Positions 2,209-61,374 of a stretch of DNA of 64,000 nt are shown here, in pieces. A program made the position numbers and the translations under genes. The notes under the pieces are model-generated. The model was not told the origin of the DNA. It searched no databases and worked only from the letters and a program-made list of their open reading frames with translations. How positions within the stretch are numbered: position 1 is the first letter of the stretch; each line of letters begins with the position of its first letter. Source of the DNA: Cordylochernes scorpioides (lineage: Eukaryota > Arthropoda > Arachnida > Pseudoscorpiones > Chernetidae); assembly GCA_030710605.1 (NCBI GenBank), contig CP092879.1, forward strand, positions 46,804,374 through 46,868,373, given 5' to 3'.

Positions 2209-2539
2209 CTTGTTCAGATTAGAAAGTTTTTCATGTTGAATCGAATAAAAATCCTTTCCTCACATGTCTTTATGAAGCCCAAACACTAAGGGGGAAGATT
2301 TGGAATTTCACAAGCAACTTCACATGCTACCTCAACTTCGAACCTGAAACTGAAAACTTTCACAAGGTAAAAGCATGATAGATTGGCATGGCAGATAGTT
2401 AGCATAGTGCATTCATGTAACTTAAACGGCACTCTGACATAAGTGCAAATTCCATAAGTCTCCATGATGGGGAGTTGCTGTCGTTGGTTGGCTATCCACC
2501 ACATGGCAGTCACCCAAGATTACTCTACCAAGATTATAA

Positions 2540-2787
2540 ACAAAAGTAATAAGACCAAATACAAATAAATAAATAGTGTGTGGGGTTTTGGTAACAGCGT
2601 TGTTACCATCTTCATTACCATTTTATTTACCATTATTATTACCATTCAGCACTTTTGTCTGAAGATGGTAACAACACTGTTACCAAACTGTTACCGAAAC
2701 GTCAGACACTATTTATTTATTTGTGTTTGGTCTTATTACCTTGTGTTTATAATCTATAATCCAAATTGTGCCTTATCATCTCTACCA
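2540..2787. mobile_element. Palindromic foldback element, subfamily A
   Basis: Left half GTAATAAGACCAAATACAAA through GTTGTTACCATCTTC is mirrored by GAAGATGGTAACAACACTG through TTTGTGTTTGGTCTTATTACC, then the one-sided end ATAATCCAAATTGTGCCTTA. The loop has expanded with ATTACC repeats. The right half holds CTGAAGA, the hairpin and GAAAC of the hammerhead-like core. Paralogue at 54445-54685. Confidence 0.85.
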
Positions 2788-3781: not shown

Positions 3782-3909
3782 TGGTATATTCCCTGAACTA
3801 TAGAATCATCCCACCTGTCAGGTAGTGCTACAAAATATAAATATCAAAATATTAATGACATGAACATAAAATATATTAAATACTTGACTACAATATCAAC
3901 ATCACCTGG

Positions 3910-4045
3910 TAATAAGACCAAATCCAAATAAATAAATGTGTGTGAAGTTTCGGGAACAGCATTGTTACCATCTTCAGACAAAAGTACTGAATGAATCTAT
4001 AATCCAATATGTTCATAATCTATAATCCAAATTGTGCCTTATCAT
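3910..4045. mobile_element. Foldback element, subfamily A, one half plus end
   Basis: GGTAATAAGACCAAATCCAA, the inverted core TTACCATCTTCAG and the end ATAATCCAAATTGTGCCTTA are present, but the second palindromic half is missing. Paralogue at about 55812-55945. Confidence 0.7.
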
Positions 4046-6754: not shown

Positions 6755-6930
6755 AACAAAAAGTAATAAGACCAAATAAAAATAGCATATTATTTATTTG
6801 GATTTGATAAAGCACAATTTTGATTATAGATTATAATACAAGAAAATAAGACCTAATCCAGATTAGGATCTTGTATTAGGTCTTATTTTCCTGTATTATT
6901 TGGATTTGGTTTTATTACCTTTGTGTGAGA
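6755..6930. mobile_element. Nested foldback remnants, subfamilies A and B
   Basis: Arms AGTAATAAGACCAAATAAAA, GAAAATAAGACCTAATCC and inverse copies TAGGTCTTATTTTCCTGTAT and TTTGGTTTTATTACC, with the end GCACAATTTTGATTATAG. The ribozyme-like core is lost. Confidence 0.65.
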
Positions 6931-7797: not shown

Positions 7798-8030
7798 TTA
7801 CACCCTAATTACAAGGTAATAAGACCAAATCCAAATAAATTAATAGTATGTGACCATTTCGGTAGCCACATTGTTATGATTATCAGACAAAAGTACTGAA
7901 TAAAACTATTTTGTTTTGGTTACTGATGATGGTAACAATGTTGTTACTGAAATGTCACACACTATTGATTTATTTGGATTTGGTCTTATTTCCTTGTAGT
8001 TCTAATTGATAATCCAAATTGTAACTTTTC
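7798..8030. mobile_element. Foldback element, intermediate subfamily
   Basis: Mirror halves with AAGGTAATAAGACCAAATCC and TTGGATTTGGTCTTATTTCC. The core reads CTGATGA, GGTAACA/TGTTACT and GAAAT, so it is slightly decayed. Paralogue at 59920-60135. Confidence 0.8.
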
Positions 8031-8344: not shown

Positions 8345-8887
8345 CAGTAGAACCTCCTTGTAAAGGACACTTAATTGCAGAGCCAAAGTGTCCTTTAGGG
8401 AAAAGTGTGTCCTCTCTCTTACCAAAGAGTTGCTAAATTTTAAAAATGGTCTCTCTTCTTTCTTATCTCCACTCAATCATATTAGGGTATCAAGTTGTGA
8501 CCCTTGAAGGTGTCTGTTTTACAACCATCATGACTGGGTGAAGTAGAATGCATCTGCCTTTGTCATTAAGACTGGGAGCACTACTCAGTGGCAGGCCGAC
8601 TTAGATCCAAAAGAAATGCCGCCTCTGACATGAGGAACGGATGCCATGTGCAGCCACTCCTAAAATGGATTACAAATGCTGCTCATCCTGTATCCCTTGA
8701 TTAGGAGCCCTTACAGGGTACTATCAGCCGGGCCAGCTGAACCCAGGTTTTTTAGCGAGCTTGTTACTGCTACCCCTCTTCCTTTTTCATCTGGGCTTGG
8801 GACCAGCAAAGGCGGAGTAAAAATGGTAATATTGCAAATGAAAACTGTCCTTTGTGGAGAGGTGTCCACTAAAGGGAGGTTCTACTG
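8345..8887. mobile_element. pogo-like element split by a family-A retroelement
   Basis: Left end CAGTAGAACCTCCTTGTAAA and right end GAGGTTCTACTG belong to one element. The insert at 8447-8817 is flanked by a TAAAAATGG duplication. Paralogue at 60832-61374. Confidence 0.85.
8447..8817 (+). mobile_element. LINE-tail-sharing short retroelement (family A) with target duplication
   Basis: Sense strand is minus: it ends in GGAGATAAGAAAGAAGAGAG. It carries a piece of the LINE-A 3' end (ATCATATTAGGGTATCAAG on the + strand) followed by the common body up to GGGACCAGCAAAGGCGGAG. TAAAAATGG occurs on both sides inside the interrupted pogo-like element, so this insertion unit is complete. Paralogue at about 60930-61304. 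Confidence 0.8.
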
Positions 8888-12921: not shown

Positions 12922-13476
12922 CTCATGGACAAAACTTAAGTAAGTTGTACCTTTTAGCATGTACATTGGGATTCAGACAATAACTCTGTAATAAACAAGG
13001 TAATAAGACCAAATCCAAATAAATAAATAGTGTGACTTTTTGGTAACAGTGTTGTTACTGAAACGTCACACTATTTATTTATTTGGATTTGATCTTATTA
13101 CCTTGTGTTTATAATCTATAATCCAAATTGTGCCTTATCAACTCTGTAAGATATTTGATGCACAGTGACCTTTATTGAGGACACATGAGATAGCCAAGTG
13201 TGAACCAAATTTTTATTTTTCCGTTTATCATTGCTCTTCACAATTCATCCTTTCATACCTCATCCCTAAGGTTAGAAATAATAATTTATTTCTCCTTAAA
13301 ATAAGTTTTGATTTTTCGTCCAAAAGAAACACATGCGGGATAATTTTCAAATGTCGTTTTACAATCACAAGCCGCATTATATTGTATTATAAATTACCTC
13401 TTGTCTCCTTAAAAAAAAAAATAGACAACTGGCGACATAAAAGTTTCTACTTCCTCAAGTTTTGTCCGTGAGTGTA
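12922..13476. mobile_element. Tc1-like TIR element (CTCATGGACAAAACTTAAG family), interrupted
   Basis: Ends ACTCTCATGGACAAAACTTA and CAAGTTTTGTCCGTGAGTG are inverted. The interior includes GCATGTACATTGGGATTCAG and AGACAACTGGCGACATAAAA, shared with 39708-39912 and 41461-41657. A foldback element (12992-13139) and a half foldback (about 13285-13370) are inserted in it. Confidence 0.7.
12992..13139. mobile_element. Foldback element, subfamily A, with 10-bp target duplication
   Basis: Short-loop palindrome with GTAATAAGACCAAATCCAAA, GGTAACAGTGTTGTTACTG and GATCTTATTACCTTGTGTTT. AACTCTGTAA flanks it at 12982-12991 and 13140-13149; related elements without the insertion read AACTCTGAAAGATATTTG. Confidence 0.8.
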
Positions 13477-13691: not shown

Positions 13692-14340
13692 TGGTCTTCT
13701 TTCTTATCTCCACACAATCATATTAGGGTATCAAGCTTGTAAAGCTTGTTGATGGTGTCTGCTGGGGAAGAGTAGAGCTCATCAATGGATGAGTCAATAC
13801 AGTCAATAATGTGTTTTGGGGTTGCAGCTTGAGAATTGCACTTAGTACATAGTAAGAATACCTTGCAACCATTCTGGAAAGTCATTGTACGTAGATGACC
13901 AGACCTAAGTCTGGAAATCAAAGACTGTTGTTCTCTTGGGAGGACAGAACTGGTGCTTGTCCCTCCTGCTCTGTACCAGTCATGTGCAGCATTAGATTTC
14001 CATTCCTGCAGGCATTGGGTTTTGATAGTACGGAGGAGGTCTCTTTCGTCTAGTTGGGTGGTAGATTCTCTGGCTTCAGGTAGGCCAAGAACTCCAGCCT
14101 TTGCCAGAGAGTCTGCTAGCTCATTTCCAGGAATTCCAACGTGAGCTGGAAGCCATTGCACTGTGACAGAGCTGTTGGCTGGGAGTCGGTTTACAGACTT
14201 AGCAATGTACTTTTGTCTGAAGATGGTAGCAACGCTGTTACCGAAACGTCACACACTATTTATTTATTTGGATTTGGTCTTATTACCTTGAGACTTAGCA
14301 ATGATATTGAGGAGAGGTTCTTGACTGGAGAAGCAGCTTT
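13692..14340 (-). pseudogene. LINE-A retrotransposon 3' end: RNase H C-terminus, zinc finger and tail
   Basis: Minus-strand coding at 13718-14207 carries WLPAHVGIPGNELADSLAKA, the conserved C-terminal part of a LINE RNase H domain (spacing His and Asp of HxGxPGNExAD). A terminal finger follows (RLRSGHLRTMTF, LCTKCNSQAATPKHIIDC), then the stop. The 3' UTR ends GTGTGGAGATAAGAAAGAAG. A foldback monomer with a 13-bp target duplication interrupts the RNase H region at 14208-14288, and the frame resumes at 14302. The RT and endonuclease are missing (5' truncation). The terminal CCHC-like finger is typical of R1/Jockey/I-group LINEs. Confidence 0.88.
14208..14288 (+). mobile_element. Single foldback half (subfamily A) inserted with 13-bp target duplication
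   Basis: TACTTTTGTCTGAAGATGG through CGAAACGTCACACACTATTT to CTTATTACCTTG. AGACTTAGCAATG occurs at 14195-14207 and 14289-14301, cutting the LINE-A frame cleanly. This shows that a monomer missing the left arm can insert by itself, as expected for a 5'-truncating retroelement. Core: CTGAAGA 14217-14223, GAAA 14243-14246. Confidence 0.88.
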
Positions 14341-14640
14341 CTTCTTCTTTTTCTTATCTCCACACTGGGTGAAATAGAATGTGTCTGCCTTTGTCATTAA
14401 GACTGGGAGCACTACTCAGTGGCAGGCCGACTTAGCTCCAAAATAAATGGCCGCCTCTGACATGAGGAACAGACGCCATGTGCAGCCGCTCCTAACATGG
14501 AGTACAAACGCTGCTCATCCTGTATCCCTGGATTAGGAGCCCTAACAGGGTACTATCAGCTGAGCCCAGGTTTTTTAGTGAGCTTGTTACTGCTCCCCCT
14601 CCTCCTTTTTCATCCGGGCTTGGGACCGGCAAGGGCGGAG
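14340..14640 (+). mobile_element. LINE-tail-sharing short retroelement (family A), near full length
   Basis: Sense strand is minus. On the + strand: TTCTTATCTCCACACTGGGT, GCCTTTGTCATTAAGACTGG, CAGTGGCAGGCCGACTTAGC, AGTACAAACGCTGCTCATCC, GAGCTTGTTACTGCTCCCCC and TTGGGACCGGCAAGGGCGGAG. It abuts the LINE-A copy, both ending in the same GATAAGAAAGAAG tail. Confidence 0.8.
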
Positions 14641-14911
14641 TTAGAGAGCTTGAAGGCTTTGAAGGGTATAAATGGCTGCTCTTGAGTCGGAGTAGATTAT
14701 TATTTTTCTTCACCCAATCATGATGATGATGATGGTGACATGCTGATGTACAAAGCCTCCCCAACAACTCCTTGTATCTGTAGTGATTCCATATGCTGAG
14801 AGATTGGTCCCCCCCCTTATTATTATTTTTTTTTTTTTTGAAGAAAAATGCCGTAAATATGTAAATTTTTCATTAGAGAAAAGAAAGGTTATGTAAATAT
14901 GGAAGGATATA

Positions 14912-19944: not shown

Positions 19945-20152
19945 TACAAGGTAAATAGTTTGTGACGTTTCTGTAACAGCGTTGTTACCATCTTCAGACA
20001 AAAGTGCTGAATGATTGCTGAATTGATTCAGTACTTTTGTCTGAAGATGGTAATAATGCTGTTACCGAAATGTCACACACTATGTATTTATTTAGATTTT
20101 GGTCTTATTACCTTGTGTTTATAATCTATAATCTAAATTGTGCCTTATCATT
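19945..20152. mobile_element. Foldback element, subfamily A
   Basis: CAAGGTAAATAGTTTGTGAC with inverted core TTACCATCTTCAGAC, then TTTTGTCTGAAGATGGTAA and the usual CTATAATCTAAATTGTGCC end. The left arm is shortened. Confidence 0.78.
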
Positions 20153-20577: not shown

Positions 20578-20966
20578 TGTCTATAGCGCCCCCTCTAAAT
20601 AGCCCCTTCCTCTCTATAGCGCCCTATTTTAAACATTAAAATGTGAACGTTTTACATTAAAAGTGACCCAATAAAGCAAAATTTAGATTATAGATTATAA
20701 ACACAAGGTAATAAGAACAAATCCAAATAAATAAATAGTGTGTGACGTTTCGGTAACAGCGTTGTTACCATCTTCATGTATCCATTCCGTACTTTTGTCT
20801 GAAGATGGTAACAACGCTGTTACCAAAATGTCACACATTATTTATTTATTTGGATTTGGTCTTATTACCTTGTGTTTATTAAAAGTGACCTGTCTATAGC
20901 ACCCCCTCTCTATAGCACCCTATTTTGGTGAATCCCAAGAGGGGGTGCTATAGACAGGTTTAACTG
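20578..20966. mobile_element. pogo/Tigger-like element (CAGTTAAACCTG family) split by a foldback
   Basis: Same family as 4589-4765, TA flanked. A foldback at 20669-20877 interrupts it, with ATTAAAAGTGACC duplicated at 20656-20668 and 20878-20890. Comparison with the intact copy proves the duplicated target. Confidence 0.9.
20669..20877. mobile_element. Foldback element, subfamily A, with 13-bp target duplication
   Basis: Left end GCAAAATTTAGATTATAGAT and left arm with the inverted core, then right arm TTTTGTCTGAAGATGG to CTTATTACCTTGTG. The right side lacks the ATAATCCAAATTGTGCC end present at the left, so the two halves are unequal. Confidence 0.9.
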
Positions 20967-21337
20967 TATTTTGAACCTAGTATTTTCTCTTATTTCTAAT
21001 TTCAAAATAATATGTAAAGAGAGATTTGTGGATTGAAGAAAGGTTGAACCAGCTGGTCAAGATGACATTGGAAGGTTGGGTTACCCAATGAGGGAAGTGG
21101 GCTTGCCCAATCTTTTAATGCAGACTCATCAACATTGCTGCGACACTCTTGTTGTTGTTTCCAGTTAACCTTGATGTTTGATGGACAAACTTTTCTGGAG
21201 TTCTGACCTTAGAGATAGTTTTGCTTCCATAAAACTTTATTATAAAAACAGACTACTCGGGGGTCTTAGGGGATAGAAGTTTTATAATTAGAAATTTTTA
21301 TAAAAAGTTTGTTTTTTAGACCAGGGTCAAGAAAATA

Positions 21338-21490
21338 AACAAATTTATAATGTGTGTGATGTTTTGGTAACAGCATTGTTACCATCATCAGACAAAATAA
21401 TACATTTTTAATTTAGTAACAATGATGTTACCGAAATGTCGCACACTATTAAATTATTTGGATTTGATCTTATTTTCTTGTAGCTATAGG
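21338..21490. mobile_element. Foldback element, subfamily B remnant
   Basis: GTGTGTGATGTTTTGGTAAC with CATCATCAGACAAAA, mirrored by GTTACCGAAATGTCGC and TTTGGATTTGATCTTATTTTC. Confidence 0.72.
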
Positions 21491-23227: not shown

Positions 23228-23342
23228 ATAAGGCACAATTTGGATTATAGATTAGTTCATTCAGTACTTTTGTCTGAAGATGGTAACAACGCTGTTACCG
23301 AAACATCACACACTATTTATTTATTTGGATTCGGTCTTATTA
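23228..23342. mobile_element. Foldback element, subfamily A, half copy
   Basis: GGCACAATTTGGATTATAGA then directly TTCAGTACTTTTGTCTGAAG with the GGTAACA/TGTTACC hairpin, GAAACATC and TTCGGTCTTATTATCTT. Confidence 0.78.
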
Positions 23343-23560
23343 TCTTACATCTCAAGCCATTGAAGATATAAAATAACAACAAAATATACCTCACTTGCCC
23401 AAAATGTAGCTTGGCACCTGCAGCTCCAGAACACATTTTAGCTTGCATTAGATGCACTAAACAGGACCTTTGGGAGAGGCCACTGCTTATCATAAAACAG
23501 CTTGAGAAGCATTGACTCATGGAATTTGTGTAAGCTTTACACAAGAGGATAAGAACACCT
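23343..23560 (+). pseudogene. LINE-B C-terminal fragment
   Basis: Plus-strand remnant related to 30103-30325: CTCAAGCCATTGAAGATA, CCCAAAATGTAGCTTGGCAC, CACATTTTAGCTTGCATTAG and GACCTTTGGGAGAGGCCACT, then ACACAAGAGGATAAGAACA. Translation gives a broken finger with HILACIRCTKQDLWE. Confidence 0.75.
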
Positions 23561-25962: not shown

Positions 25963-26262
25963 AGGGGGGTTGGTGGATGAGTGGCCTAAACTGTTGGCTT
26001 TCAACTGTTATGACCCCGGGATTGAATCCCACATTGGTAACTTTTTTTTGTTTTTCGATTTAAAAAAAATATCCAATGGGCCCCAATTCTTGCAAAAGTC
26101 CAACCCCACCAGCAAGTGAAAGTAACCAAACGGGGCTATGGCATATTTGTAAGTGCAAAGTCGAACTGCTTTTCACGTATGTAGACATGTAGTGCACTTA
26201 CAGTAAAAGTAGTCACCTACTTCTACCCACCAAAATTATCATCACCTGTACCACATGTACTT
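25963..26262 (+). mobile_element. tRNA-derived SINE joined to the Penelope-like element
   Basis: Head GGGGGGTTGGTGGATGAGTG with box B-like GGGATTGAATCCC, body and CCACATGTACTT end. It runs straight into the Penelope-like coding sequence at about 26263 instead of a poly(A) tail. Confidence 0.82.
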
Positions 26263-27442
26263 AATTGTCACCTCCCTCTACCTCTGTCTTCCTCATCAGC
26301 TCATCACAGATGGCTTGACTCATTTCCTTCAATCTCAAAATGTCGATTCTCACACTTCCTCAACCATAGTCCAACTTACCAAAACATGCTTAAGCATGAA
26401 CACATTCTCATTCCTACAGCACCATTACAGACAGTTCAGGGGCTCCCCAATGGGCAGCCCTCTATCTACCATTATTGCCGAAATTGTCATGACTAGAATA
26501 GATAATTGGATTACTCATACCCTTCCAACAGATATCCAGTTCTGGCGCAGGTACATTGATGATGTCTTCTGTGTATGCAAAAGGGGTCAGGAGAGCTTCA
26601 TACTATCAACCCTTAATAATTACAACCAAGATATTTCCTTCACTCTAGAAACTGAAACTAACCATGTTCTCCCATTCCTGGACATCTTAATTATCCGCAC
26701 CCCATCCTCATTTCACACTACAGTTTATCATAAAAAACAATGCCCCCCCTGCTACACTCATTACAATTCTCACTGCCCCACCTCCCATAAAATCAATATT
26801 GTTAGAACTCTTACAAAAAGAATATCCACCCATTGTTCCATAGACATCTTTAAAATAATAGAAAGAAATCGCATTATAACCCAGCTCTCCATGGCTTCTT
26901 TTCCACTCTGGTTCATTAACAAATATACTTACACACCTGCATCCTCCAATCCTTCCATGACATACAGATCATTGTGTTTTCTCCCTTACTCCCCCTCCTC
27001 TGTTGATATAGCCAGAAAACTCAAATCCTATGGCATCCGTACCATATATAAAAACTCCCCGAACCTTCTTTCATCCCTCCGTCACCCTCATACTAAGTCC
27101 TCAGCTCCTCCTGCCCCCCTTCGTTCTGTGGGTGCAGTCTACTCCGTCTCATGCGAACAGTGCCTTGCCACTTACGTCGGTGAGACGGGTAGATCTGTAT
27201 CCATCAGGATGACTGAACATTCCCGCAATATTTCCCGTCAAGATACCAAGTCCCTCATTTACCAACATATGCAGACCACGGGCCACACGTTCAACTTCAA
27301 CAACCCCACCATACATTACAACCACATACATATCTTACACCAAAGACTCATTTTAGAATCAATAGTATCCCACAAACTAAATAGCATCAATAGAAAAATA
27401 GACCTTCCAGAAGCCTATCATCCTCTCCTGTCCTTTATTTAA
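26263..27442 (+). CDS. Penelope-like element: reverse transcriptase and GIY-YIG endonuclease, 5'-truncated
   Basis: An uninterrupted frame (first ATG 26255, in the SINE; native sequence from about 26263) encodes the C-terminal part of a Penelope-like retroelement protein. Counting from 26255, residues 63-71 are GSPMGSPLS and 100-103 YIDD, the RT catalytic core. After a linker, residues 294-300 AVYSVSC and 306-313 TYVGETGR form a GIY-YIG endonuclease with a CxxC in between (C300, C303), R319/H322 nearby and a candidate metal-binding Glu at 368. It ends QHPLLSFI-like before TAA at 27440. Full elements are about 800 codons, so the first RT motifs are missing. It is open through the whole catalytic C-terminus, suggesting a fairly recent insertion. 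Confidence 0.92.
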
Positions 27443-33119: not shown

Positions 33120-33305
33120 TAATCCAAATTGTGCATTATCAGCGTATAACTTCTTTTATTCAACTGACTATAGTCCAACATTTACTTTAATTCAACAAAT
33201 TTTTCACTTGCCAAACATACAATTTACTTTAATCAAATATATTTCTACATACCAACTTTAATGATGAGTCACAATTTGAATTATAGATTATAAACACAAG
33301 CTAAT

Positions 33306-33540
33306 AAGACCTTAAGTCTGGTCATCTACAGACAATGACTTTCCAGAATGGTTGCAAGGTTTTCCCACTATGTACTAAATGCAATTCTCAACCTGCAACC
33401 CCAAAACACATTATTGACTGTATTAACTCATCCATTGATGAGCTCTACTCATCCCCAGCAGACACCATCAAAAGTCTCAAGCTTGTAAAGCTTGATACCA
33501 TAATATGATTGTGTAGAGATAAGAAAGAAAGAAGAAGACC
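33306..33540 (+). pseudogene. LINE-A 3' end remnant
   Basis: GTCTGGTCATCTACAGACAA, AGAATGGTTGCAAGGTTTTC, CACATTATTGACTGTATTAA and CAGACACCATC, then GTAGAGATAAGAAAGAAAGA. Encodes a decayed terminal finger. Confidence 0.8.
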
Positions 33541-33552
33541 AAATAAAAAAAA

Positions 33553-33623
33553 TCCCACACTGGGAATCGAACTCGGGCCTCCTGGGTGAGAGCCAGTTAA
33601 CCTAACCACTAGACCATGTGGGA
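33553..33623 (-). tRNA. tRNA-Glu(CTC)-like gene, probably decaying
   Basis: The minus strand folds as a cloverleaf of 71 nt: 7-bp acceptor TCCCACA/TGTGGGA, D region GGTCTAGTGGTTAGG, anticodon loop CTCTCAC (CTC) on a CTGG/CCAG stem, and T loop TTCGATT. Box A and box B are intact and an oligo-T run follows directly, as a Pol III terminator. The T stem CCGAG/CCCAG has two A-C mismatches, each explained by one CpG decay, and the length is one short. It lies between foldback half-arms, so it may be a pseudogene or a SINE founder. Confidence 0.65.
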
Positions 33624-34274
33624 GATTTGGTCTTAATACCTTGTGTATACTGACCTTAATAAAACGGAAAATTTTGATCCCTTGGGGTGTTGAATTAGAG
33701 AAGTGAGACTTTTTTTTAGCATCAAGACTCTTGCAGACCACCTTTAGATAGTGGGGTCTAAGAATAGGAAAATTTCTATCTACTTGAAGAGGATTAGGTC
33801 TTATTTTCTTGTATTATAATCTATATTCCAAATTGTGCTTTATCATTTTTGATAGACTTCAATGGACCTAAGAAGTTATTCTTCCTATGAGGTGAAGAAA
33901 ATGAATGGATTAGGTCTTATTTTATTGTATTATAATCTACTTGAAGAGAAATAGGTTACCACCTTGCAAAAATATTATCTATATGCAACTTCAGCATTAA
34001 CACATATAAAAAGAACATCGAATATAGCTACTTCAATTCAGTCAAACTATTTTTCAACTCCCGACCAAACTACCAACTTTTACTTGAATCAACTATAATA
34101 CAAATGTGGACCCTCTTATTTCAATTAGGGATGTTGAACTAAAGAGGTGTTTATGACTAAATATTCTTTTAAATACGGCTCTTTAGGAAATGAAAAAGAA
34201 AAAAAAAAAAAAGGTACATACATTCTCTCCTCTATTCAAATCCTGTCTGAGGAAATGCTATAAAAATATATATA

Positions 34275-35650: not shown

Positions 35651-35747
35651 GCCAGTCAACATCTTCAAGAGTCTTCTTTTTATATATATTTTTTAAGGTG
35701 GGCAGAAATGGTTTCTCTACTTTTTAATAAAGGTATCAAAATACATA

Positions 35748-36092
35748 AGGTAACTAGACCCCATCCAAATGAATTAATAATGTAAGACATTTCAGCAACA
35801 GCGTTGTTACCATCTTCAGACAAAAGTACTGAATTAAGAAAAAAAAAAAAAAAACCACAGCATATTTTTAAATAGTTGGTAATGAGTTTTCAATTGGGTA
35901 AGTAGAAATAGAAAAAAAAATAAGAGTACTAACAAGAAAAAAAAAAAAAGTTTCCAAGAATCCTAAAATATTATTTGCAAACTATTTAAAAACAGGGTGT
36001 GAAATCTCATTAAGTACTTTTGTCTTAAGATGATACTAAAGCTGCTATCGAAATATCACAAATAATTTATTTATTTGAATGTAGTCTGTTGT
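35748..36092. mobile_element. Foldback element, subfamily A, long loop
   Basis: Left half with AACAGCGTTGTTACCATCTT and CAGACAAAAGTACTGAATTA, right half TTAAGTACTTTTGTCTTAAG to TTGAATGTAGTCTG. The loop of about 175 bp contains A-runs and an inner inverse pair. Core is damaged (CTTAAGA). Confidence 0.72.
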
Positions 36093-43200: not shown

Positions 43201-43513
43201 TTAATAAAAAATATGTGTGTTACCCAAGATCAATAATACTAGAAATGTGCAATAATTATGAAAAATTTACTCACAATGTTGCCTGCCTGGTATGAATTCA
43301 GGGCACAATTCACATTAATATTCAGTTTGTGTTTCTTCCAAAAAGATATATTCCACACTTTGAAAGGTGTGTTTCTGCAAGTAAAAGGTTGGGCAAAGAA
43401 TCACTGTAGAGCTATATGAACATCCCAATGATACTTTATAGTACAAATACAGTATAGCCGACTATAATTCACAACTGCTTTTTTCAAATATCACTCAAAT
43501 TACCTACCATAAT

Positions 43514-43612
43514 ACAAGGTAAAATAAGACCTAATAATTTAATAGTATGTGATGTTTTAGCAACAGCATTCTCACCATCATCAGACAAAAGAATAAATTA
43601 TTTTTTTTTTCA
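43514..43612. mobile_element. Foldback element, subfamily B, half copy
   Basis: ACAAGGTAAAATAAGACCTA, GTGATGTTTTAGCAACAGCA and CACCATCATCAGACAAAAGA. Confidence 0.72.
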
Positions 43613-43615
43613 ACA

Positions 43616-43812
43616 CAAGGTAATAAGACAAAATCGAAATAAATAAATAGTGTGTGACGTTTCAGTAACAGCATTGTTACCATCTTCAGACAAAAGTACT
43701 GAATGTATTATTCAGTTATATTCAGTACTTTTGTCTGAAGATAGTAACAACGCTGTTACCGAAACATCACACGCTATTTATTTATTTGGATTTGGTCTTA
43801 TTACCTTGTGTG
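43616..43812. mobile_element. Foldback element, subfamily A
   Basis: Mirror halves ACAAGGTAATAAGACAAAAT ... TTTGGTCTTATTACCTTGTG, core CTGAAGA, AGTAACA/TGTTACC, GAAAC. Confidence 0.85.
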
Positions 43813-43894
43813 GGAGAAAAATTTCTACCATCATTTGATCAATCAATATTGTCACGGCAGAGAAGACAAATATTCAAAAGTTTAATTTAAAAAT

Positions 43895-48785: not shown

Positions 48786-48829
48786 CTTAAAATATGGCAA
48801 CTTTGATATATTTTGCTATAACCATGTTA

Positions 48830-49208
48830 CAAGAAAATAAGACCTAATCCAAATAATTTATTAGTGTGTGACCTTTCGGCAACAGCATTGTTACCATCAT
48901 CAGACTAAAGAATAAGTGAGAAAAAATATCACAGCAAGTTCTTAAATAGTACTGTTATCAAGTGTTTAAACAAAATAACAGATAATGAAAAATAGTTTTT
49001 TTTAAGACAACTTGAAGACTTCTTAGAATTAAAATGGATTTTTTTTATAACAGTACTATTTAAGAACTTGCTGTGATATTTTTTCTCACTTATTCTTTTG
49101 TCTGATGATAGTGACAATGCTGTTGCCGAAACATCACACACTAATAAATTATTTGGGTTAGGTCTTATTTTCTTGTATTATAATCTATAATCCAAATTTT
49201 GCCTTATC
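48830..49208. mobile_element. Foldback element, subfamily B, long arms
   Basis: ACAAGAAAATAAGACCTAAT ... TTAGGTCTTATTTTCTTGTA, and the inner arms extend through AAAAAATATCACAGCAAGTT / ACTTGCTGTGATATTTTTTC. The right half has CTGATGA (about 49101) with AGTGACA/TGTTGCC and GAAAC; the one-sided end CTATAATCCAAATTTTGCC follows. Confidence 0.85.
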
Positions 49209-49209
49209 A

Positions 49210-54100: not shown

Positions 54101-54444
54101 ACTTGTTCAGATTAGAAAGTTTTTCATCTTGAATCGAATAAAAATCCTTTCCTCACATGTCTATATGAAGCCCAAACACTAAGGGGGAAGATTTGGAATT
54201 TCACAAGCAACTTCACATGCTACCTCAACTACGAACCTGAAACTGAAAACTTTCACAATGTAAAAGCTATGATAGATTGGCATGGCAGATAGTTAGCATA
54301 GTGCATTCATGTAACTTAAACGGCACTCTGACATAAGTGCAAATTCCATAAGTCTCCATGATGGGGAGTTGCTGTCGTTGGTTGGCTATCCACCACATGA
54401 TAGTCACACTTTGTCCACCCAAGATTACTCTACCAAGATTATAA

Positions 54445-54685
54445 ACAAAAGTAATAAGACCAAATACAAATAAATAAATAGTGTGTGGGGTTTTGGTAAC
54501 AGCGTTGTTACCATCTTCATTACCATTTTATTTACCATTATTATTACCATTCAGCACTTTTGTCTGAAGATGGTAACAACACTGTTACCGAACTGTTACC
54601 GAAACGTCACACACTATTTATTTATTTGTATTTGGTCTTATTACCTTGTGTTTATAATCTATAATCCAAATTGTGCCTTATCATC
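54445..54685. mobile_element. Palindromic foldback element, subfamily A (paralogue)
   Basis: Same insertion as 2540-2787, so it predates the duplication. It retains CTGAAGA and GAAACGTC; the stem region carries a small internal duplication of CTGTTACCGAA. Confidence 0.85.
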
Positions 54686-55682: not shown

Positions 55683-55811
55683 GAGTGGTATATTCCCTGA
55701 ACTATAGAATCATCCCACCTGTCTGGTAGTGCTACAAAATATAAATATAAAAAAATTAATGATCTGTACATAAAATATATTAAATACTTTGCTACAATAT
55801 CAACATCACCT

Positions 55812-55945
55812 GGTAATAAGACCAAATCCAAATAAATAAATGTGTGTGACATTTCGGTAACAGCATTGTTACCATCTTCAGACATGATGAATGAATCTAT
55901 AATCCAATATGTTCATAATCTATAATCCAAATTGTGCCTTATCAT
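55812..55945. mobile_element. Foldback element, subfamily A, half copy (paralogue)
   Basis: Paralogue of 3910-4045. Confidence 0.7.
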
Positions 55946-58190: not shown

Positions 58191-58352
58191 TATATTAGGA
58201 TTTGGTCTTATTATCTATAATCCAAATTGTGCCTTATCAATTAATCAAATATAAATCTCCGAAGATAAATAAACTTAACCTCGGAGATTTATATTTGATT
58301 GATCTAATTGATACAGAGGATTATATTTCTGATAATATACACATTATTCAGT

Positions 58353-58497
58353 AAAGAAAATAAGACCTAATCCAAGTAAATTAATAGTGTATGACATTTC
58401 AGTAATAGTGTTGTTACCTAAACGTCACACACAATTAATATATTTGAATTAGGTCTTATTTTTCTTATAGCTATAATTCAAATTGAGCTTTATCACA
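58353..58497. mobile_element. Foldback element, subfamily B, right duplicate only
   Basis: AAAGAAAATAAGACCTAATC ... GAATTAGGTCTTATTTTTCT, end ATAATTCAAATTGAGC. CACATTAT is on both sides; the left duplicate reads straight through CACATTATGCAATGG at about 4563. Confidence 0.82.
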
Positions 58498-58984
58498 TTA
58501 TATGCATTAGTAAATTTATATTCTGTTTTTATAACACATTCTGATATATAACCAATTTCTTAATAATATATTTTAAAAAATAATTCTCTTCACAGAGCAC
58601 TTATAAATCATTTTCATTGTGCATATATTTCCTTTCAAATCGAACAATTTTCTACTGCCCTTACTGCAATTATAAAAATAATGGGAGGCTACTAGAAAAT
58701 TGTTCAATTTGAAAAGAAATATAAATGCTGTAAAAAAAAAAGTAGAGTTTATATTTTCATTAACAGATGAAAAACAAATGCAACTCGTTTAACTTAGAAA
58801 TCACTCCAGATGTGTGTACCATTTTTTTTTTTTTGCTTGCCCTCCTTCCCCTTCCACTTTTTTTTTTTTTTTGTGCTAAAAATTCATATTTCATTACCAA
58901 GCTTCTTCTCCCCCCCCCCACCCTAAAAAAAAAAGCTTGTAAGGCCATCGGTTGTTCAGCACATAACTTGTTACAAGTTCAAAA

Positions 58985-59209
58985 CGCAAGGTAATAAGAT
59001 CAAATTCAAATAAATAAATAGTGTGTGACATTTCGGTAACAGAATTGTTACCATCTTCAGACAAAAGTACTGAATGAGGATATTTTTTTAGTACTTATGT
59101 CTGAAGATGGTAACAACGCTGTTACCGAAACGTCACACACTATTTATTTTTTTGGATTTGGTCTTATTACCTTTTGTTTATAATCTATAATCCAAATTGT
59201 GCCTTATCA
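58985..59209. mobile_element. Foldback element, subfamily A, with 17-bp target duplication
   Basis: CGCAAGGTAATAAGATCAAA ... TTTGGTCTTATTACCTTTTG, end ATAATCCAAATTGTGCCTTA. TTGTTACAAGTTCAAAA flanks it at 58968-58984 and 59210-59226. The left duplicate (about 4912) is empty. Core CTGAAGA, GGTAACA/TGTTACC, GAAACGTC is intact. Confidence 0.92.
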
Positions 59210-59227
59210 TTGTTACAAGTTCAAAAA

Positions 59228-59286: not shown

Positions 59287-59464
59287 ATATTGTGCAATAA
59301 ATTAAGAGGGAGCAATCCCTCAAAATATTTGGAGAAAATAATTTTTTTTTCTTTAACAGAATCAGGTACGCTCTTTTTTTTTTTATTTAAATTAAAGATG
59401 GTATTTTGAAAGGGAAATGGTTGGGATATGAAAAAATTGTTTGAGTTAAAGTAAGTGTTGAATT

Positions 59465-59595
59465 GATAAAGCATAATTTGGATTATAGATTATAATAAAA
59501 GAATCCAAATCCTTTTGTCTAATGATGGTGACAATGTTGTTGCCGAAACGTCACACACTAATAAATTATTTAGATTAGGTCTTATTTTCTTTTAT
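59465..59595 (+). mobile_element. Foldback element, subfamily B, with 13-bp target duplication
   Basis: GATAAAGCATAATTTGGATT, then CTTTTGTCTAATGATGGTGA, hairpin and GAAACGTC, ending TAGGTCTTATTTTC. TAAGTGTTGAATT flanks it (59452-59464, 59596-59608); the left duplicate is empty at about 7470. Confidence 0.9.
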
Positions 59596-59919
59596 TAAGT
59601 GTTGAATTTTATAGTAAATTGAGAATTTTACAAGAGGTTATAATGTGTTTATAGAGTAGAAGAACATTTTTGAAACTAGATAAATTTCTCCTCGATAGCA
59701 ACAAGGTTAAGTAAACATGTTTGTGAGTGATGAGGGGCAAGGAACCAGTAAAGTTGGGACAATCTAGTTTGGATAATCAACCAGAATAGTTCAACCAAAA
59801 TAGCACCCAATTCTCTCTAATTAAATGTTATTAATTAAAAACAAGTGTTGACCTCTTCAACTAACATGTTTTTTTTTCCCCTGTCTTCATCGGAGAGCAT
59901 TAAATTACACCCTAATTAC

Positions 59920-60135
59920 AAGGTAATAAGACCAAATCCAAATAAATTAATAGTATGTGACCATTTCGGTAGCCACATTGTTATGATTATCAAACAAAAG
60001 TACTGAATAAAACTATTTTGTTTTGGTTCTGATGATGGTAACAATGTTGTTACTGAAATGTCACACACTATTGATTTATTTGGATTTGGTCTTATTTCCT
60101 TGTAGTTCTAATTGATAATCCAAATTGTAACTTTT
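59920..60135. mobile_element. Foldback element, intermediate subfamily (paralogue)
   Basis: Same insertion as 7798-8030, with the same CTGATGA and GAAAT core. Confidence 0.8.
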
Positions 60136-60831: not shown

Positions 60832-61374
60832 CAGTAAAACATGCTTGTAAAGGACACTTAATTGCAGAGCCAAAGTGTCCTTTAGGGAGAGGTGTCCTCT
60901 TACCGGAGAGTTGCTAAATTTTAAAAATGGTCTCTCTTCTTCTTCTTTCTTATCTCCACTCAATCATATCAGGGTATCAAGTTGTGACCCTTGATGGTGT
61001 CTGCTTTACAACCATCATGACTGGGTGATATAGAATGCATCTGCCTTTGTCATTAAGACTGGGAGCACTACTCAGTGGCAGGCCGACTTAGATCCAAAAG
61101 AAATGCCGCCTCTGACATGAGGAACAGAGGCTATGTACAGCCACTCCTAAAATGGATTACAAATGCTGCTCATCCTGTATCCCTGGATTAGGAGCCCTTA
61201 CAGGGTACTATCAGCCGGGCCAGCTGAACCCAGGTTTTTTAGCGAGCTTGTTACTGCTACCCCTCTTCCTTTTTCATCTGGGCTTGGGACCAGCAAAGGC
61301 GGAGTAAAAATGGTAATATTGCAAATGAAAACTGTCCTTTGTGGAGAGGTGTCCGCTAAAGGGAGGTTCTACTG
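60832..61374. mobile_element. pogo-like element split by a family-A retroelement (paralogue)
   Basis: Same nested arrangement as 8345-8887, with the retroelement at about 60930-61304. Confidence 0.85.

Follow-up and report, generated by a model that had tools for sequence, protein, structure and literature searches.

The window analysed here, a stretch of 64,000 nucleotides from the 2.62-Gb, 24-contig genome of the pseudoscorpion Cordylochernes scorpioides, contains numerous foldback palindromes, which a preliminary description had taken for ribozyme-bearing retroelements of the Penelope type and not for DNA transposons. The direct repeats quoted there were recovered base for base at all five intervals by exact comparison within the window. 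Copy H (20669..20877, minus strand) is a head-to-head palindrome that, on the plus strand, has its long end with the tail on the left and its short end on the right, and it is flanked on both sides by ATTAAAAGTGACC, an exact 13-bp direct repeat (20656-20668 and 20878-20890). The hammerhead-like core in its long arm (20744..20777, minus strand) has ATGAAGA where CTGAAGA would be expected, owing to truncation of the arm at this point, and the motif in its short arm (20799..20832, plus strand) reads CTGAAGA ... ACCAAAATGTC, with a decayed core. A 96% match to copy H is present outside the window at C17:46875952. Copy E (14208..14290, plus strand), situated at the border of an open frame of the RNase H type, is a single arm with a short end only and carries the exact 13-bp duplication AGACTTAGCAATG (14195-14207 and 14291-14303). 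Copy D (12992..13139, plus strand), a palindrome joined inside the hairpin with its long end on the right, is surrounded by an exact 10-bp repeat (12982-12991 and 13140-13149). The palindrome of copy P (58985..59209, plus strand; short end left, long end right) lies within an exact 17-bp repeat (58968-58984 and 59210-59226), which probably consists of 13 bp plus an AAAA microhomology with the element end. Copy Q (59465..59595, minus strand) belongs to the CTGATGA subfamily, its own reading being CTAATGA; its long end is on the left, where most of the arm is absent, its short end is on the right, and the exact 13-bp duplication TAAGTGTTGAATT is found at 59452-59464 and 59596-59608.

Further copies are distributed over the window. 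Copies A (2531..2778), C (7803..8028) and M (48828..49209), all on the plus strand, run from a short end on the left to a long end on the right. Copy A is flanked by the duplication CTCTACCAAGATT and copy C by a 14-bp duplication with one mismatch; copy M, a member of the CTGATGA subfamily with arms that extend further up the pLTR, is flanked by CTATAACCATGTT. In copy B (3895..4043, plus strand) a short arm on the left is joined to a right arm that consists of the tail only, with ATCAACATCACCT on both sides as judged by eye. No clear duplication was seen around the plus-strand copies G (19951..20150, a palindrome with short end left and long end right), I (21318..21488, a palindrome with both outer ends short or decayed), K (35742..36089, two inverted arms with ~180 bp of other sequence between them) and L (43607..43813, a palindrome with two short ends and an extra arm beside it at 43512-43591), nor around the minus-strand copy J (23228..23350), in which the long end on the left is cut to ~24 bp and the short end lies on the right. 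Copy O (58342..58494, plus strand), again a palindrome joined inside the hairpin, shows only an 8-bp repeat by eye, and a short palindrome at 6806..6895 (minus strand), composed of tail-proximal sequence only and nested in another member, has CAAATCCAAATAA on both sides, likewise by eye. Part of the window is itself directly duplicated, the region at ~1-12 kb corresponding to that at ~52-64 kb with 92-98% identity in the main blocks; this duplication, which terminates in a region of tandem repeats, takes in several foldback copies. Copy A thus has a counterpart at 54436-54682 in the duplicated block, copy B a duplicate at 55799-55943 and copy C one at 59910-60134. Consequently, part of the window copies are not independent, and some are counted twice.

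An old copy at 33263..33647 (minus strand) comprises a short-end arm, a tRNA-Glu sequence, other sequence and then a long-end arm, and is flanked by a degenerate 13-bp repeat (10 of 13 positions by eye). The arrangement looks like a capture of other RNAs in the centre of a palindrome. The tRNA-Glu(CTC), on the minus strand, was called intact by both ARAGORN and Rfam and is followed by a run of T.

Read outward from the centre, an arm is composed of pLTR sequence of varied length, TTTTGT, a hammerhead-like motif and ~40 bases leading to a short end (S) at ATTACCTTG; in some arms ~33 further bases lead to a long end (L), GTGCCTTATCA. A profile built from one arm matched the window 43 times, and one arm gave 1191 first-look candidates in the genome, while exact-pattern scans of viral and genome contig collections yielded no match. 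For a larger sample, three queries (a palindrome, one arm and an arm of greater length) were used to retrieve 68 similar loci; the window and these loci (276,960 bases) contained 308 arms once overlaps had been removed. As the loci were chosen by their similarity to the queries, the sample is biased and non-random, and the counts given below describe only this sample. Among neighbouring arms within 400 bases, 108 pairs were oriented head-to-head, 42 in the same direction and 25 tail-to-tail.

The 108 head-to-head pairs were reduced to 105 by requiring full flanks and to 92 unique pairs by counting each duplication only once. At least 8 bp matched exactly at the two ends in 52 of these 92, as compared to 4.1% of shuffled pairings of left and right flanks. 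When mismatches were allowed and pairs with equal end types were dropped, a duplication was found in 45 of the remaining 74 short/long pairs and in 0.55% of the shuffled pairings; the other 29 showed none at the threshold used. Two of the 45 (L074/L076 at 1329/1331) have both their duplication and their centre in common, and probably represent a single event entered twice. The duplication measured 13 bp in 14 of the 45 and 12-15 bp in 32, with extremes of 9 and 24, and this peak at 13 bp indicates a nearly constant length. Longer duplications can be explained by identity between the target and the element end, and shorter ones by decay. The preliminary description had argued from 'long and variable' duplications; since their length is close to constant at ~13 bp, this argument fails as worded.

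The end types are likewise unevenly paired. Among all 92 unique pairs, 74 combine a short with a long end, 13 have two short and five two long ends; among the 40 pairs with a duplication of at least 10 bp the corresponding numbers are 37, three and zero. The position of the long end hardly varies, and that of the short end scatters over ~10 bases. Moreover, the two arms of one insertion often stop at different arm positions, for instance at 2 and 15-16, at 2 and 32, or at 40 and 2. Among the 64 solo arms, an exact end repeat of at least 10 bp appeared in six rows, namely copy E twice, three tandem junctions and L036; given that E is counted twice and three rows are tandem junctions, one-sided insertions with a duplication look rare. 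Direct head-to-tail tandems were observed in L041 (~1374-1694) and L043 (~579-883), where the tail of one arm joins ATTCAGTAC or the GTAC start of the next, as if the enzyme had jumped between templates.

When the protein of the Penelope-like element (PLE) of the window was searched against the fetched loci, a GIY-YIG-like fragment was found just upstream of the arm in L056. A genome search with the L056 peptide, of which the best 150 of 30,540 candidates were scored, yielded open frames of up to 897 amino acids. At the place with the 897-residue frame, on C9, pLTR, motif and short end of the foldback family lie downstream of the endonuclease frame, the arm being identical to the foldback sequence over the 100 bases compared, and Pfam GIY-YIG was called with 24.9 bits at a cut-off of 22.6. 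The pieces upstream are open as well; one contains MGSPISP and YVDD, and a one-sequence comparison of this piece with the PLE of the window gave 28% identity over 318 positions (E 2e-32). As Pfam RVT_1 did not match the pieces of this element, termed PLE-2, its assignment as a reverse transcriptase rests on these motifs and the pairwise match. Judged from its sequence, PLE-2 is an endonuclease-containing PLE in which a reverse transcriptase and a GIY-YIG ORF are linked to the foldback ends, the long open frame adjoining the arm having been read at this one place. Inverted pLTRs with a short tail at one end and a target-site duplication are further PLE features present here. The preliminary description had set beforehand the search for an autonomous Penelope-like element sharing the 3′ end as a check on its Penelope-type claim, and such an element is indeed present in the genome.

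A DNA query spanning PLE-2 from the endonuclease to the end matched at all 40 places scored, its own included (40 of 4046 first-look candidates); 19 of these reach the long end L and 21 stop in the short (S) zone. The small foldbacks are devoid of an ORF, and L034 contains endonuclease pieces: it is a ~1-kb palindrome, 93% self-complementary, with arms of ~500 bp that run into the endonuclease sequence; its ends are of the short/long type and its duplication measures 12 bp. The arm was also considered as the start of the PLE-2 ORF, as an ATG overlaps the motif; this was dismissed, because in L056 the frame is closed by a stop codon inside the tail.

The window itself harbors a second PLE family, PLE-1 (26213..27442, plus strand), with a Pfam RVT_1 match and a region that aligns with the GIY-YIG part of PLE-2; Pfam made no GIY-YIG call in PLE-1 at this position. 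PLE-1 was rejected as the autonomous partner of the foldbacks, its architecture being alike and its 3′ end sequence different. Although this 3′ sequence differs from that of the foldback family, PLE-1 likewise has two ends, 36 bp apart, and the 17 ends located in 20 loci and sorted by eye comprise nine long and eight short ones. The longer copies of both families are predominantly inverted. Neighbors within 8 kb were head-to-head in 21 of 27 cases for PLE-1 (six tandem, none tail-to-tail; 102 scored places) and in 27 of 30 cases for the PLE-2 endonuclease (two tandem, one tail-to-tail; 150 scored places). Both outer flanks were covered for four head-to-head pairs of PLE-1, and all are of the short/long type; three have duplications of 12-13 bp, one of them read by eye, and the fourth is without a convincing one. 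Two of the PLE-1 loci, L011 and L022, share one flank. PLE-1 is very uniform, with 95-100% protein identity over the 102 scored places.

The hammerhead core comprises C3-U4-G5-A6-N7-G8-A9, G12-A13-A14-A15.1 and U16.1-H17. The layout CTGA(A/T)GA - hairpin - GAAACGTC, in which the preliminary description had recognized this core, is present across the window, with 22 matches at up to one mismatch per part, two of which look unrelated. In the window and the 68 loci together, 178 of 190 long arms show the layout when up to five substitutions are allowed on each side. In an alignment of 99 of the 109 distinct motif sequences, from which the 10 of non-modal length were left out, the core positions are retained in 93-99 of the 99 arms, with the exception of G12 (83 of 99, mostly changed from G to A), and one extra U follows A9. 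The majority motifs of the subfamilies differ at N7, at one loop position and at two stem positions, which still pair as wobbles. Pairing is retained in 96.4% of the stem cells. Covariation is weak: double changes occur in seven of 990 cells, a value reached in nine of 500 shuffles, and at two pairs, reached in 228 of 500. An Rfam search of the motif gave no hammerhead match, and in the predicted fold of a monomer only stem II forms, part of the core being paired elsewhere. The sequence GAAACGTC leaves helix III without a loop, so the motif departs from the type I hammerhead with a capped helix III that characterizes animal retrozymes. Hence, what is shown of the term 'ribozyme-bearing' is the conserved core layout, and the ribozyme itself is putative.

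Hammerhead cleavage products were also considered as substrates for insertion and rejected, as by eye no pile-up of arm starts was noticed at the predicted cleavage point among the listed centres. With purified anole PLE, insertion in vitro does not require hammerhead cleavage (PMC11167929). Moreover, in our alignment the PLE-1 hairpin motif AGTCGAAGGGC...GCCCGAAAGCTC is off the hammerhead core at two positions, U4 and A6 in the numbering given above. In view of these two observations, the sequences examined here do not support a role for hammerhead cleavage in insertion, and the motif is probably carried along within the pLTR.

We then asked whether the palindromes are made afresh. The centres of the 45 insertions supported by a duplication fall into 33 groups, even at a loose threshold that also merges long arms via shared pLTR. 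For the comparison of arms, strongly truncated ones were dropped, which left 41 insertions. Here, the two arms of one insertion differ by 0.056, as compared to 0.076 when partners are swapped inside the subfamily, and none of 2000 swaps gave a value as low; even so, the own partner ranked first in similarity among all arms for only 14 of the 41 insertions. The simplest reading is that both arms derive from one source and are joined at insertion. Four insertions (L042, L045, L050 and L053) have an identical centre, GTACTGAATGTAC, at different sites and in both short/long orientations, and L048 and L049 have a nearly common centre at different sites. Given these shared centres, it is probable that whole palindromes were copied in some cases. 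Where the tail is present in the former four loci, it shows the variant CTACAATCC ... CATCA.

Taken together, these results support the view that the palindromes of the window are PLE material, and the class to which the preliminary description assigned them was right. We consider it likely that the foldbacks are 5′-truncated, double-ended insertions of the autonomous PLE-2, primed on both strands from a staggered cut. Each arm would copy the region around the pLTR, that is, upstream pLTR sequence, the hammerhead-like hairpin and either end, S and L being two putative internal start sites for reverse transcription. The endonuclease would cut both target strands ~13 bases apart, whereupon the 3′ end of one strand would prime at S and that of the other at L. 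The two cDNAs, copied from RNA of one source, would grow toward the 5′ end of the RNA, terminate at differing positions and be joined in the middle, presumably by end joining and sometimes with filler. Such a reaction would leave a head-to-head palindrome whose outer ends are short on one side and long on the other, together with a ~13-base duplication. The purified PLE of the anole has been shown to cut both target strands and to extend each of them, with copying initiated at two neighbouring positions inside the RNA that delimit a 'tail' (PMC11167929). However, the start site of the anole enzyme in vitro was reported there to be the same on both strands, and in the absence of such a strand difference the pairing of S with L needs an extra rule. 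For PLEs in general, the chances are about even that they integrate by coupled asymmetric double target priming, with S used on one strand, L on the other and the cDNAs end-joined, and that head-to-head PLE pairs and MITE-like palindromes form one continuum. If they are products of one and the same reaction, many foldback 'MITEs' of animal genomes rich in PLEs may be footprints of such elements.

The similarity between the two arms of one insertion is not specific to double priming, as it is also expected from conversion between arms or from self-priming, in which one cDNA or antisense template would fold back and copy itself to give a head-to-head repeat. Self-priming on an antisense template was preferred for the rotifer Penelope elements (PMC3846280) and has thus already been proposed for the same arrangement; it accounts for palindromes at the inverted junction as well as for the likeness of the arms. 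However, fold-back copying explains the differing stops of the two arms only with long unpaired loops. Moreover, S is also an end of coding PLE copies (21 of 40 PLE-2 places, eight of 17 for PLE-1) and so looks like a start site and not like a premature stop; we therefore regard self-priming as rather unlikely, though it is the first alternative to be weighed. The common centre GTACTGAATGTAC at four sites in both orientations, and the nearly shared one of L048 and L049, are what would be expected if a palindrome were a non-autonomous element transcribed and copied whole by the PLE-2 protein. Yet most centres differ between copies, an arm is on average more similar to its partner in the same insertion than to arms from other insertions of the subfamily, and the lengths grade into copies with endonuclease sequence, which makes propagation as a unit improbable as the general route.

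Inverted-repeat ends, a nearly constant duplication and a copy number as high as the first-look candidates for one arm suggest would all suit a MITE or foldback family of a DNA transposon, moved by a transposase that duplicates 13 bp. This identity was rejected because the ends belong to an autonomous PLE, and we assign it almost no weight. The termini are not the equivalent, defined inverted repeats of a MITE, as the long end is near-fixed and the other is fuzzy over ~10 bases; in addition, the centres mostly differ, and a single-arm copy with a duplication exists (copy E). Along with the grading of arms into PLE endonuclease and the same geometry in full-length PLE pairs, this bears out the statement of the preliminary description that the palindromes are not DNA transposons.

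Double priming from PLE-2 can be compared with known systems. The PLE class, inverted pLTRs, the tail and the hammerhead motif are known already. The preliminary description knew of no name for the family; the anatomy of inverted pLTRs, tail and target duplication has been described for Penelope elements (PMC3846280). In the canonical Penelope of Adineta vaga, as in the foldbacks, the pLTRs are inverted, one of them bears a tail, which in Penelope measures ~31 bp, and the target is duplicated. However, it is present in very low copy number with duplications of 8, 9 and 10 bp (PMC3846280), whereas here one arm alone gives 1191 first-look candidates, pairs without an ORF fill the window and the duplication is ~13 bp. 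The Poseidon PLE of Anolis carolinensis, PAc, also has a hammerhead motif in the pLTR region (PMC11167929), and in both systems two nearby ends bound a tail of 30-40 bp, which are start sites in PAc (PMC11167929) and may be such here. Cleavage and extension on both strands by PAc in vitro are what the anatomy of the foldbacks suggests (PMC11167929). PAc is a different element, whose ORF begins at the motif (PMC11167929), and the passages of the PAc account that were consulted make no mention of short palindromes of the short/long type (PMC11167929). The non-LTR retrozymes of animals (PMC7229834) resemble the foldbacks in being small and non-autonomous, with hammerhead motifs and target duplications of >4 bp. 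They consist of 150-450 bp repeats with type I hammerheads and a capped helix III (PMC7229834), in contrast to the mostly inverted arms of the foldbacks and their motif without a helix III loop. Minimal hammerheads lacking helix III are known inside PLE repeats (via PMC6155905 and PMC7229834), and the foldback motif can be likened, by description alone, to the minimal PLE hammerheads of Cervera and de la Pena (2014), which have a core without helix III. Abundant MITE-like palindromes that lack an ORF and combine the short/long rule with a ~13-bp duplication were not found in the literature searched, and an earlier description is possible.

Proposals on how PLEs insert include self-priming (PMC3846280) and initiation inside the RNA, with both strands being extended in vitro (PMC11167929). 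The pairing of S with L, the near-constant duplication and the diversity of the centres are traces left in the genome that are relevant to these models. If double priming holds true, they would constitute an in vivo counterpart to two-strand extension, and the pairing of start sites would become a testable property. On this reading, a repeat annotation that relies solely on inverted ends can also place the products of PLEs among the DNA transposons by mistake.

The Rfam search of the window returned additional matches. Matches of the palindromes to micro-RNA families were below the gathering scores (at best 76.4 vs 140 bits), were read as hairpin matches and were rejected. A weak match to Hammerhead_HH9 lies at 1488-1553 on the minus strand (26.5 bits vs 52; E 0.024). 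Three matches to the type-P1 twister at 14593-14647, 8770-8824 and 61257-61311, all on the minus strand, scored 49.2, 38.7 and 38.7 bits, respectively, at a gathering score of 67.2, with E values of 6e-8 to 6e-5; the first of these is located upstream of an RNase H-type frame (13718-14248, minus strand).
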